A stretch of 64,000 nucleotides of DNA from Williamsia soli (GTDB taxonomy: Bacteria; Actinomycetota; Actinomycetes; Mycobacteriales; Mycobacteriaceae): NCBI RefSeq assembly GCF_017377795.1, contig NZ_JAFRDR010000004.1, positions 186,001-250,000 on the forward strand, given 5' to 3'. Shown piece by piece: positions 47,704-52,110 of this stretch. Under the pieces are notes generated by a model that saw only the letters and a program-made list of their open reading frames with translations, made no database searches and was not told the origin of the DNA. Made by a program: the position numbers and the translations under genes. Each line of letters starts with the position of its first letter. The first letter of the stretch is position 1.

Positions 47704-47904
47704 GTGGATGAAGTGACCCGCTGGTGGGACGGCGTCGAGGAATGGTTGACGTCGTTGTCCTTCGTTCCACAGATCCTGGTGTCCGCCGCGATCGTCGTAC
47801 CACTTGCCGTCGGACTTTCGTATCTGATGAACCTCCTGGTAGACGGCTCGTTCCGGCTCCTGGACCGCCGTGAATCCGCCGACGTCGACCCCGGAGAACA
47901 GTGA
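47704..47904 (+). CDS. Small single-span membrane protein (66 aa)
   Basis: 66 aa. An amphipathic Trp-containing start (VTRWWDGVEEWLTSL) is followed by one membrane span (ILVSAAIVVPLAVGLSYL) and an acidic tail. Its place between the GH15 gene and subI matches Rv2401 in M. tuberculosis. Function unknown. GTG start. The stop shares a base with the next ATG (TGATG), so the two are coupled. Confidence 0.75.
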   Translation: MDEVTRWWDGVEEWLTSLSFVPQILVSAAIVVPLAVGLSYLMNLLVDGSFRLLDRRESADVDPGEQ

Positions 47905-47981
47905 TGCCCCGCTCTAAGGTGACCGTGGCGTTGATCGCACTGATCGTGCTTGTCGTCGTGGCCTGGTTGTTGCTGCGCTGA
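47904..47981 (+). CDS. Micro-membrane protein (25 aa)
   Basis: A 25-codon frame starting MPRSKVTVALIALIVLVV and ending WLLLR: three basic residues and then one hydrophobic span. It starts within the stop of the 66-aa membrane protein gene. Position and size match Rv2401A of M. tuberculosis. Too short for most gene finders, but coupling and composition support it. It may act with the 66-aa protein. Confidence 0.65.
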   Translation: MPRSKVTVALIALIVLVVVAWLLLR

Positions 47982-48034: not shown

Positions 48035-48040
48035 TAATGT
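48035..48040 (+). promoter_or_regulatory. -10 box of the cys operon leader
   Basis: TAATGT is seven bases before the ATG at 48048, with a TTCTGA at 48013-48018 in -35 position (16-base spacer). The transcript would begin at or beside the leader ATG and run into subI. Confidence 0.55.
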
Positions 48041-48047
48041 TCCGCCT

Positions 48048-48137
48048 ATGTCAGCACCCGGCGGTTACCGCGTGCGCCACACCCTGGCGCTGTTCGCGGT
48101 CGAGTATCGCTGCGTTTTTGACGTTCTGTGTCGCTGA
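48048..48137 (+). CDS. Candidate leaderless cysteine leader peptide upstream of subI
   Basis: A 29-codon frame, MSAPGGYRVRHTLALFAVEY then RCVFDVLCR and stop. Cys occurs at 22 and at the next-to-last codon 28. The ATG follows a -10 box by seven bases, so it is likely leaderless. Short Cys-containing leaderless frames upstream of sulfur-assimilation genes act as cysteine attenuators in mycobacteria. Its stop codon lies inside the left arm of a hairpin. The coding status is inferred, not shown. Confidence 0.6.
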   Translation: MSAPGGYRVRHTLALFAVEYRCVFDVLCR

Positions 48138-48176
48138 TCGACATTCTCGCGGGCTTCTTTACTGCCGCCGATCAGC
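48133..48176 (+). promoter_or_regulatory. Hairpin overlapping the leader stop codon (attenuator candidate)
   Basis: GCTGATCG (48133-48140) pairs perfectly with CGATCAGC (48169-48176); loop 28 bases. The TGA of the leader peptide is inside the left arm. A ribosome stalled at Cys28 would cover this arm and prevent folding, linking Cys-tRNA shortage to subI-cysTWA expression. Confidence 0.5.
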
Positions 48177-48228
48177 ATCCAAAGATTCTGGCCTGACTCT
48201 GACGTGAACAAAACTAGGGGACACAACC

Positions 48229-49377
48229 GTGCTTTTTCGATCAGCTCGATCTGCGCCGCGGAAGCGAGGGCGGAGCCGACCAGGAAGATCCGCCGCCGCT
48301 TCGATCATCGTTCTCGCCGTCTCCGCGCTGGTGCTGTCCGGCTGCGGCGGCGGCTCCACCGATGAGCCCGGCGGCCAGGACATCTCCAGTGGTTCCAAGC
48401 ACCTGAACCTGTACGCGTACGCGGTGCCGAAGATCGGCTACGACGAGATCATCCCGGCGTTCCGCGACACCGAGGAAGGCAAGGACATCGGCTTCGCCGC
48501 GTCCTACGGCGCGTCCGGTGATCAGTCTCGCAAGGTCGCGCGCCGTGTTCCTGCCGACGTCGTCAACTTCTCGGTGGCTCCCGACGTCACTCGCCTGGTG
48601 AAAGCAGGTGTGGTGGACAAGGACTGGGCCGAGCAGTATCCGAACGGCAGTACCCCGTTCGGATCTGTCGTGGCGCTGGTCGTGCGGGAGGGCAATCCGT
48701 TGAACATCCGGACCTGGGATGACCTGCTCAAGCCGGGCATCCAGGTGGTGACCCCGAACCCCGGTAGCTCCGGCTCGGCCAAGTGGAACCTGCTCGCGCC
48801 GTTCTCCGCCAAGAGCAACGGTGGCGTCGATGAGCAGGCCGGTCTGGATTACGTGGCCGAACTGGTCCGCGACCACACCCGCATCCAACCGAAGTCGGGT
48901 CGTGAGGCGACAACCGCGTTCGAGCAGGGGCAGGGCGACGTGTTGATCAGTTATGAAAACGAAGCGATCTTCCTCAAGAACCAGAACGCGACCGCGAAAC
49001 CGGGCCAGCGGGTCGACTACGTCATCCCTCCGGAAACGTTCAAGATCGAGAACCCGGTCGCGGTGGTGAACTTCAGCAAGGAGAAGGAAGCTGCGAACGA
49101 GTTCGTCAGCTACCTCTTCACCCCTGCCGCGCAGCGGATCTGGGCGGAGCAGGGCTTCCGGCCGGTCGACGAGACCGTCATCGAGGAGACCAAGGATCTG
49201 TTCCCCGGTGAGATCGCCAAGCTGTGGACGATCAAGGAACTCGGTGCGGTGCTCGGGGAGGGCACAGCCGAGGAGAACAAGGGCAAAGACCTCAAGGGGT
49301 GGCCCGCGGTGGACAAGGCGCTGTTCGGAACATCGGGCGCCATCACGGAGATCTATGACGCCGGAGGCAAGGTATGA
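48229..49377 (+). CDS. subI: Sulfate ABC transporter substrate-binding lipoprotein
   Basis: 382 aa. A long basic start, then a hydrophobic segment ending in the lipobox LVLSGCGGG. The mature part is a sulfate/thiosulfate-binding protein: LYAYAVPKIGYDEIIPAF, FAASYGASGDQSRKVARRVP, and GSSGSAKWNLLAPFSAKSNG. It delivers sulfate to CysTWA at the membrane. The GTG at 48229 has AGGGGAC upstream. The stop overlaps the cysT start. Confidence 0.95.
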   Translation: MLFRSARSAPRKRGRSRPGRSAAASIIVLAVSALVLSGCGGGSTDEPGGQDISSGSKHLNLYAYAVPKIGYDEIIPAFRDTEEGKDIGFAASYGASGDQSRKVARRVPADVVNFSVAPDVTRLVKAGVVDKDWAEQYPNGSTPFGSVVALVVREGNPLNIRTWDDLLKPGIQVVTPNPGSSGSAKWNLLAPFSAKSNGGVDEQAGLDYVAELVRDHTRIQPKSGREATTAFEQGQGDVLISYENEAIFLKNQNATAKPGQRVDYVIPPETFKIENPVAVVNFSKEKEAANEFVSYLFTPAAQRIWAEQGFRPVDETVIEETKDLFPGEIAKLWTIKELGAVLGEGTAEENKGKDLKGWPAVDKALFGTSGAITEIYDAGGKV

Positions 49378-50222
49378 CAACCACGGTTACACCGCTCAAA
49401 CCGCTGCCTACGGGGCCGGCGAAACGCACGTGGGGCAGCGTCGGGCCGCTCGGCGTGGGTGTCGCGGGTCTGTGGCTGAGCATCATCGTGCTTCTGCCGC
49501 TCGCCGCGATCACCAGTGAGGCGTTCGACGACGGATGGAGCGGGTTCTGGACTGCGGTCACCGACGAGAACGCGATCGACACGCTCAAGGTGACCGTTCT
49601 CGTGTCGCTGGTGGTGGCTCTGATCAATGTCGTGATGGGCACCCTCATCGCCTGGGTTCTCGTCCGCGACGAGTTTCCCGGCAAGCGGTTCGTCAACTCG
49701 CTCATCGACCTGCCGTTCGCGTTGCCCACGATCGTCGCCAGCCTGGTGCTGCTGTCGCTCTACGGACCGAACAGCCCGATCGACATCGAATTGAATGCGA
49801 CCCGGCCGGCGCTGGTCATCGCGCTTGCGTTCGTCACCCTGCCGTTCGTGGTGCGCCAGGTGCAGCCCGTGCTCATCGAGATCGACAAAGAGGTCGAAGA
49901 GGCCGCGGCCTCTCTCGGCGCCACCAACTGGGTCATCTGGTGGAAGATCATCTTCCCCGCGCTGGCTCCCGCAGTGCTGTCCGGTGCCGGTCTGGCGTTC
50001 ACCCGCGCGATCGGCGAGTTCGGTTCGGTCGTCCTGATCGGCGGCAACATCCCCGGTGACACCCAGGTTGCGTCGCAGTACATCCAGCAGCAGATCGAGA
50101 TCGACTCACCCGTCGACGCCTCTGCCATCTCGGTGGTGCTGTTGCTCATCGCCTTCGTGGTGCTACTGGTGTTGCGCGTCGTCGGTCGTCGCACGTCCAA
50201 GCGTGAGGAGCAGAGCCGATGA
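49374..50222 (+). CDS. cysT: Sulfate ABC transporter permease CysT
   Basis: 282 aa. Six-helix permease with the family start region LGVGVAGLWLSIIVLLPLAA and the EAA loop EEAAASLGATNWVIWWKIIF (split) that contacts the ATPase. VDLPFALPTIVASLVLLSLYG is typical of CysT. Coupled by ATGA to subI and to cysW. Confidence 0.96.
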   Translation: MTTTVTPLKPLPTGPAKRTWGSVGPLGVGVAGLWLSIIVLLPLAAITSEAFDDGWSGFWTAVTDENAIDTLKVTVLVSLVVALINVVMGTLIAWVLVRDEFPGKRFVNSLIDLPFALPTIVASLVLLSLYGPNSPIDIELNATRPALVIALAFVTLPFVVRQVQPVLIEIDKEVEEAAASLGATNWVIWWKIIFPALAPAVLSGAGLAFTRAIGEFGSVVLIGGNIPGDTQVASQYIQQQIEIDSPVDASAISVVLLLIAFVVLLVLRVVGRRTSKREEQSR

Positions 50223-51115
50223 AACTGTCCACATTCCCGCGACTCACTCTGCGCACCATTGCGCTCGTGTACCTGTTCCTCCTCCTGGTCGTGCCGGTGG
50301 CGCTGATCTTCTACCGCTCTTTCGAACACGGCATCGTCCAGTTCTGGGAGTGGATCACCACACCCGCCGCGATCTCGGCCCTGCAGCTGAGTCTGTTGAT
50401 CGTTGCGATCGTGGTCCCGCTCAACGTCGTCTTCGGTGTGTTCACCGCGCTCGCCATCGTCCGCGGACGTTTCCGCGGCCGTGGGGTCGTCGAAGCCATC
50501 GTCGACCTGCCGTTCGCGGTGTCGCCGATTGTCGTCGGTGTCGCCCTGATCCTGCTGTGGGGATACGGGGGCTGGTTCGGGGGTCTGGAAAGCGCCGGCT
50601 TCACCGTCATCTTCGGTCTTCCGGGCATGGTGCTGGCGACTCTCTTCGTGACCTTGCCCTTTGTGGTGCGTGAGGTGGAACCGGTGCTCCGTGAGATCGG
50701 GACCGAGCAGGAAGAGGCCGCTGCGACGCTGGGAGCCAGTGGCTGGCAGACATTTTGGCGGATCACCTTGCCGGCCATCCGGTGGGGCCTGTCCTACGGT
50801 GTCGTCCTGACCGTGGCCCGGGCACTCGGTGAATACGGGGCGGTGATCATGGTGTCGTCCAATCTGCCCGGCGTCTCGCAAACTCTCACGCTGCTGGTGT
50901 CGTCGCGGTACACAGACGACTACAACGAGTACGGCGCCTATGCGGCCGCGACTCTACTGATGATGATCGCAATCCTGGTGCTGCTGCTCATGACCTTGGT
51001 CGAAAAGCGCACCGGTACCAACCAAATCGAACGTCGCAAGGCGAGCAACGAGACCGACGCGGTCACCGCCCCGAGCGAGACAGCCCCGAAAACGCAGGAG
51101 AGTGAACTGGTATGA
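50219..51115 (+). CDS. cysW: Sulfate ABC transporter permease CysW
   Basis: 298 aa. Second permease: [36 protein letters not shown], and the EAA loop [21 protein letters not shown] polar C-terminal tail of about 35 residues (Thr/Glu/Ala-rich) extends beyond the last helix. ATGA overlaps on both sides. Confidence 0.96.
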
Positions 51116-52110
51116 CGATCTCGGTGATTGATGCGAACAAGCGATACGGCGACTTTGCCGCACTCGACAATGTCTCGATCGACATCCCGGTTGGCTCACT
51201 GACAGCGCTTCTCGGGCCGTCGGGTTCGGGAAAGTCGACTCTGCTGCGAGCCATCGCCGGCCTGGACCAGCTCGACTCGGGCACGGTGCTGATCAACGGC
51301 GACGACGTGACAACGGTCTCGCCGCAGCGCCGGGACATCGGATTCGTGTTCCAGCACTACGCCGCGTTCAAACACATGACTGTGCGCGACAACGTCGCGT
51401 TCGGTCTGAAGATCCGCAAGCGGCCGAAAGACGAGATCAAGGCCAAGGTCGACGAACTCCTTGAGGTCGTCGGACTGGCAGGCTTCCAAACCCGGTACCC
51501 CGCACAGCTCTCCGGTGGTCAGCGACAGCGCATGGCCCTGGCCCGCGCGCTGGCGGTCGATCCCAAGGTGCTGCTGCTCGACGAGCCCTTCGGTGCGCTC
51601 GACGCCAAGGTTCGTGAGGACCTGCGGGCGTGGCTGCGCCGGCTACACGACGAGGTGCAGGTGACGACCGTGCTGGTGACCCACGATCAGCAAGAGGCGC
51701 TCGACGTCGCGGACCGGATCGCGGTGCTGAACAAGGGCCGCATCGAGCAGATCGGTTCTCCGGCCGATCTCTACGATCGTCCCGACAACAAGTTCGTCAT
51801 GTCGTTCCTCGGGTCCGTCGCCAAGCTCAACGGAGTCCTGGTGCGCCCGCACGACATTCGTGTCGGACGTACGCCTGATCTGGCGCTGGAGTCGGCAGAG
51901 CCGAATGCGGCCGAGACCGGTGTACTGAAGGCGACCGTTAAACGGGTGGTCTACCTCGGCTTCGAGGTGCGTGTCGAACTGACGAACAGCGCCACCGGTG
52001 AGGACTTCCACGCACAGATCACCCGCGGCGATGCGTCCGCGCTCGGTCTGAACGACGGCGACGAGGTCTATGTTCGCGCGACCCGGGTTCCGGACGCCGC
52101 GCTCGCCTGA
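51112..52110 (+). CDS. cysA: Sulfate ABC transporter ATP-binding protein CysA
   Basis: 332 aa. Walker A is [18 protein letters not shown], the signature [16 protein letters not shown], and Walker [13 protein letters not shown]. The C-terminal TOBE-like region has [16 protein letters not shown], as in CysA. It energises sulfate import. Last gene of the operon; a large palindromic terminator follows. Confidence 0.97.

Follow-up and report, generated by a model that had tools for sequence, protein, structure and literature searches.

What is the function of the short open reading frame that precedes the subI-cysTWA genes of Williamsia soli, and could it sense cysteine? The frame lies in a 64,000-nucleotide stretch of DNA (hereafter the window) from a genome of 6.07 Mb in 25 contigs. 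An earlier note had described TAATGT, seven bases and then a 29-codon frame with cysteines at codons 22 and 28, whose stop falls within a hairpin arm, and the letters read directly agree with this layout. The leader ATG is at 48048, 7 bases past TAATGT, and the peptide is MSAPGGYRVRHTLALFAVEYRCVFDVLCR, ending YRCVFDVLCR. Cys22 is encoded by TGC (48111-48113), Cys28 by TGT (48129-48131) and the TGA stop occupies 48135-48137, such that the frame ends Cys-Arg-stop. The GTG of subI follows at 48229, leaving a gap of 91 bases from the leader stop. The leader region gave no match in Rfam. Another small frame (47904-47981, ending VVAWLLLR) is found just 5′ of the leader promoter, and a similar frame precedes subI in several Gordonia records. 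The features of the region are as follows:

48035..48040, + strand: TANNNT −10 element (TAATGT) of a predicted leaderless promoter; TANNNT pattern in 137/137 leader loci kept
48048..48137, + strand: leader frame of 29 codons plus stop, encoding an Ms4533A-type peptide
48075..48089, + strand: RNA stem H1 (CGCCA-CACCC-TGGCG) inside the frame, from permutation and paired changes
48119..48133, + strand: possible small stem H3 (TGACG:TGTCG) containing Cys28; its sides hardly vary
48129..48131, + strand: putative regulatory Cys28 codon, TGT
48133..48176, + strand: 8-bp hairpin (arms 48133-48140 and 48169-48176) with no U-run, in 4/9 genus genomes
48138..48214, + strand: spacer from the leader stop to the subI Shine-Dalgarno (SD), C>G; candidate Rho-loading stretch
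48215..48221, + strand: subI SD, TAGGGGA
48229..49377, + strand: subI, sulfate-binding protein (TIGR00971, 175.7 bits, cut-off 155.5)
49374..50222, + strand: cysT permease (TIGR02139, over cut-off)
50219..51115, + strand: cysW permease (TIGR02140, over cut-off)
51112..52110, + strand: cysA ATPase (TIGR00968, over cut-off)

Against the NCBIfam model NF042937 ("Ms4533A family Cys-rich leader peptide", curated cut-off 31) the window peptide scored 30.6 bits (E 2.9e-7), its residues 2-29 aligning with positions 3-30 of the 30-position model, whilst a genus-sister peptide 86% identical to it scored 31.6 bits and passed. The window leader resembles the family in aligning with nearly the full model and in lying before subI; it differs in falling 0.4 bit under the cut-off and in having one conserved Cys and no Cys-Cys. 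It would thus appear to belong, or nearly so, to this catalogued family. The frame was found before subI in 9/9 genus genomes searched, the window's own included. Of the 401 genomes of the GTDB family searched with the NF042937 profile, 331 contained a match at E <= 0.5 and 194 a match over the cut-off; 4/14 control genomes gave a weak match and 0/14 passed. From the best matches listed, rather than from all matches, 139 leader loci (L017-L155) were loaded, and a subI homologue was present downstream on the same strand in 138 of these 139. Two loci were dropped, a chance match without subI (L034) and a stretch containing two leaders (L146). Among the 137 kept, some are the same place fetched twice, and they contain 123 distinct cores from 19 genus-level groups by tally. 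Paired family leaders, ~1.5 kb apart in one genome and apparently with one subI copy each, were seen at L041 and L069 (G182) and at L146 (G131). A record titled Kitasatospora arboriphila (L193, NZ_JNYV01000005.1) bears a Williamsia-type leader and SubI, and is probably mislabelled.

In a class-wide sample, 31/296 genomes contained a match at E <= 0.01, 15 of them from the GTDB family to which the window belongs; several matches were weak. Seventeen loci from this search were read; three (L247, L249, L251) were unlike a leader and were dropped, and one (L242) lay within the family, leaving 13 outside it. Eleven of these 13 come from one genus-level group with genomes of 6.8-11 Mb. Ms4533A-type leaders in other actinomycetes are those at L231, L237-L241, L243-L246, L248 and L252. 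At L237-L240, L246 and L248 the leader precedes one kind of lipoprotein, of which the one tested (L238) is of the peptide-binding type SBP_bac_5, and at L231 it precedes a sulfatase gene (PF00884). When six outside-family peptides were compared with the NF042937 cut-off, four passed by a wide margin, one passed narrowly and one failed. Among 25 Gordonia records with subI, 24 include enough upstream DNA; in these 24 the leader was found up to 1000 bases 5′ of subI only once, in L207 (G. jinhuaensis). SubI identity in the Gordonia records L196-L217, L219 and L225, mostly without a leader, is 63-78%.

The earlier note had stated beforehand that a lack of codon-level conservation in relatives would speak against its reading, and on this point the frame survived. 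Across 15 pairs from six genus genomes, codon positions 1 and 2 (58 sites) contained 0-7 differences and position 3 (29 sites) 1-10. Moreover, the median dN/dS was 0.22 (523 of 600 sampled leader pairs with a valid dS), and 20 diverse peptides all share L15, V18, V23, D25 and C28. Cys28 is kept in 9/9 genus genomes. Cys22 is not conserved, and because one genus leader (L025, G001) has Ser there, it cannot be an indispensable sensor across the genus. As last Cys codon, TGT is used by 123/123 distinct leaders, compared with 7% of the 125 Cys codons of the accompanying subI genes, and the 14 class-search leaders examined all have TGT as well. In the 42 gene-like ORFs of the window, TGT makes up 46/156 Cys codons (29%), and therefore the bias is a fact about the family and unremarkable in this genome alone. 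A requirement of stem H3 for the U would be an alternative reason for the fixed TGT. The earlier note had remarked on a missing Cys-Cys-Cys run; the absence is real here, but is no oddity, as family members often end in a single Cys or in Cys-Cys. A run of Cys codons, one mark of a leaderless Cys attenuator, is not found, there being one conserved Cys codon. From these comparisons the sampled leaders appear to show a common signal of one TGT codon ending a conserved peptide, and not a Cys run.

A second leader family allows the codon bias to be viewed more widely. In the nirA leader family NF042936 (leader_Ms4527A), TGT accounts for 91/129 Cys codons over 31 loci, namely the 30 with the best scores and the one in the window genome. 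This family resembles the subI leader in being present in the same genome, in having TGT as last Cys codon and in C>G past the stop, and differs in having another peptide, RRHIDLKRACSALCRN. UGU is read by wobble, and a TGT bias common to two leader families, NF042937 and NF042936, therefore favours the view that cysteine is sensed when the Cys codon is decoded. The window genome's own second Cys leader, MRRHIDLKRACSALCRN (L156, G000:C20:287248-287301, − strand), is ~53 kb from the subI leader. It is the one good match to NF042936 in the genome, scores 34.4 bits (under the cut-off of 45) and has two separate Cys only, unlike most NF042936 loci read. It precedes a nirA-type reductase gene, for which the best models are nitrite/sulfite reductases, all under cut-off on a cut protein. 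Two further models considered as related leader families, NF042938 and NF042935, both proved unrelated.

The gap between TANNNT and the leader start is 7 bases in 119 of the 137 loci kept, 6 in 15 and 8 in 3. By way of background, TANNNT occurs at gaps of 5-9 before 248/10273 ATG/GTG of the same loci. No locus lacks the element, although leader starts were picked with the TANNNT pattern in mind, which favours the count of 137/137. A leaderless start at 48048 is predicted from this promoter pattern.

Taken together, we consider it probable that the frame is an Ms4533A-type attenuator, formed by an upstream ORF and responsive to cysteine, for which we infer the stalling, the direction of the effect and the response to cysteine. 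Transcription would start at the leader ATG, and a ribosome starting at the bare 5′ end would translate the 29 codons. With charged tRNA-Cys plentiful, it would pass Cys28 (UGU) and terminate at once at UGA, such that subI-cysTWA stays low. Were cysteine short, it would wait at the Cys28 codon, which lies two before the stop, and expression of the operon would rise. A probable role for the H1 stem, and for the conserved peptide, is the fine-tuning of pausing or timing. What the sequences themselves show is a conserved frame in front of subI, preceded by a leaderless promoter pattern and holding an invariant UGU. Cysteine sensing itself is likely because of kinship with a known leader family, and the preference of NF042936 for TGT fits codon reading as the sensor. 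We count against the attenuator the score of the window peptide, just under the NF042937 cut-off, the absence of an Rfam match, the folding described below, in which a block at the last Cys gave no clear SD release, the only mild C-richness of the window spacer, the lesser rarity of TGT in this genome than in the family sample, and the Gordonia records tested, most of which have subI without the leader.

Leaders of this kind have been described in mycobacteria. Shell 2015 (PMC4633059) describes short leaderless frames rich in Cys that lie upstream of cysA2, Rv0485 and nirA, and puts forward attenuation as their mode of action. The window leader is similar to these in being a short leaderless-type frame with a terminal Cys before a sulfur gene cluster; however, the described ORFs are called polycysteine, whereas the window leader has an unconserved Cys22 and a single conserved Cys28. 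Six such Cys ORFs are given as predicted in M. tuberculosis in Smith 2022 (PMC9094748), from Canestrari 2020, which is also cited in a 2022 review (PMC9031893). A 2026 paper (PMC13236596) places Cys genes of M. smegmatis under translation attenuation, citing Canestrari 2020. The passages seen of PMC11133741 and PMC12810186 contain nothing on an Ms4533A-type leader. At the level of titles and the starts of abstracts, no study of the Ms4533A leader was found.

Three candidate RNA stems within the frame were also examined. All 5 pairs of H1 are present in 49/58 thinned leaders, compared with a mean of 39.9 and a maximum of 43 in 500 synonymous-codon permutations. Pairing is seen in 95.3% of cells over 120 distinct leaders, against 20-56% in slid-partner controls, and 3/5 pairs have changes on both sides, although double changes are few (8 cells) and the covariation score of 0.067 is below the 0.076 of the slide +2 control. 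When three outer pairs are added, 93.0% of cells pair, 5/8 pairs have double changes (25 cells) and the covariation score is 0.142, compared with at most 0.085 when slid. The clearest case comes from the same genus, where in L025 CGCCA:TGGCG has become CACCA:TGGTG, a paired change which alters two residues (R10H, A14V). The variants AGCCA:TGGCT and GGCCA:TGGCC are found in other clades. H1 is broken in L030, L031, L032 and L043 and partly in L028, and it is absent from the minimum-energy fold of the whole window leader. Outside the GTDB family, CGCCA:TGGCG with a 6-base loop is seen in 8/13 leaders, which common codons could yield by chance. Judged on sequence comparison, the evidence for H1 as a selected RNA stem is good but not overwhelming. 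H2 (GTCGGC:GCCGAC) was rejected as a covarying stem, since synonymous permutations match or beat its full length in 36/500 cases and its core in 14/500. H3, whose sides hardly vary, is equalled by all 500 synonymous permutations.

The conservation of the peptide raises the possibility that the nascent chain itself, besides the Cys codon, brings the ribosome to a halt at Cys-Arg-stop in the manner of TnaC. The five invariant residues and the single Cys of many family members are what such an arrest would lead one to expect, but H1 and the codon choice show that conservation partly serves the RNA, and we regard peptide arrest as rather unlikely. TnaC is the leader of the E. coli tna operon and arrests in response to free tryptophan. 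TnaC and the Williamsia leader are both short leaders with conserved residues, an end beside the stop and possible Rho control; the signal of the Williamsia leader would instead be low cysteine.

How a ribosome on the leader might act on subI was approached by folding. Under translation attenuation by SD occlusion, as cited for M. smegmatis Cys leaders (PMC13236596, from Canestrari 2020), RNA structure would hide the subI SD except while a ribosome occupies the Cys codon. The minimum-energy fold of the window does cover the subI SD, 48214-48219 pairing with 48082-48087 and 48220-48223 with 48049-48052. However, when a 26-nt block standing for the ribosome was moved along 54 of the 58 thinned leaders (all but L030, L139 and L142, which have a weak SD, and L083), with single-strand folding only and tertiary and co-transcriptional effects ignored, the mean change in SD opening energy was −0.15 kcal/mol with the block at the last Cys, −0.27 one codon on and between −0.27 and +0.19 elsewhere. 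A gain of >1 kcal/mol was obtained in 15% of the 54 leaders at the last Cys, compared with 6-19% at other places. In the window, the change was +0.1 kcal/mol with the block at Cys28 and −1.5 twelve codons further on. A block at the last Cys therefore does not open the SD, either on average over the 54 leaders or in the window, where a stall at Cys28 would, in this model, leave the SD pairing untouched. We accordingly rejected the idea that a ribosome at Cys28 releases the SD, for which no clear effect was seen, and likewise a pairing between TGTGTC (at Cys28) and GACACA (at the SD), spotted by eye and unsupported by the block scan. The freeing of a downstream SD by a stalled ribosome, a further mark of leaderless Cys attenuators, is thus not seen here, by folding only, and attenuation by SD occlusion seems to us a doubtful account of this leader.

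The earlier note had proposed instead that the stall prevents the hairpin at 48133-48176, which would otherwise stop expression. Its arms, GCTGATCG and CGATCAGC, form a perfect 8-bp inverted repeat, and the leader stop lies within the left one. An equally good repeat arose in 77/1000 dinucleotide shuffles of 48041-48228, however, and the hairpin is kept in 4/9 genus genomes (one with a G-U pair), the best partner of the left arm pairing 5-6 of 8 in the other five. No terminator-like site (GC stem and U-run) was found between the leader stop and subI, and shuffled versions of the whole leader fold about as well (z −0.28). Missing from 5/9 genus genomes, without a U-run, near chance level and with no opening of the SD by a block at Cys28, the hairpin is unlikely to be a switch and is one of the weakest candidates for coupling; as a terminator it was rejected, the terminator scan, shuffles and genus comparison all being against it. 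We judge the model built on it improbable.

A terminator within the frame itself, a stem at 48095-48114 followed by TTTTT that ribosome position would open or form, is highly improbable: two overlapping terminator-like matches (48095-48119, codons 16-24) compare with 0.3 expected in shuffles, and the T run is of five in 4/9 genus genomes and of four in another 4/9, but it is broken in one (L005, two T), is absent in other lineages seen (e.g. L028, L039) and would sit under the translating ribosome. An ordinary small protein acting in trans, for example with the transporter, is scarcely credible, given that the peptide, although conserved beyond its Cys, also precedes unrelated genes (peptide-binding protein, sulfatase) and that a synonymous Cys codon is fixed.

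For the cysteine-responsive attenuator, this leaves the spacer as a possible point of coupling. C exceeds G in the spacers of 50/54 leaders (means C 0.38, G 0.28), compared with 31/54 stretches upstream of promoters and 14/21 gene upstreams in the window, subI's own among them. The same is true past 31/31 nirA leaders (NF042936), but the window's own spacer is only mildly C-rich (C 0.32, G 0.22). Rho favours C over G, and we therefore prefer Rho as the coupling step, a choice held weakly. Our preferred guess, from composition alone and by analogy with TnaC, is that a ribosome stalled at Cys28 would shield the C-rich spacer from Rho.

Tentatively, these elements may be joined into one scheme, possible though not one we would favour as a whole, in which one invariant UGU senses cysteine and the in-frame stem is selected in its own right. 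H1 could then be an RNA-polymerase pause hairpin that synchronises ribosome and polymerase, Rho would end transcription in the C-rich spacer, and the whole would form a portable module for sulfur hunger.

The described family of cysteine leaders is hereby extended to Williamsia. Whilst this kind of leader is already catalogued, the fixed Cys codon and the in-frame hairpin point to rules still to explain. Seemingly new are the H1 stem with its peptide-altering paired changes and a spacer whose richness in C would favour Rho. If H1 and the spacer matter, the cited account, in which RNA structure hides the SD, does not give the full picture; and if the joint scheme is true, a portable module would stand before genes for sulfate, for peptides and for a sulfatase in various actinomycetes.
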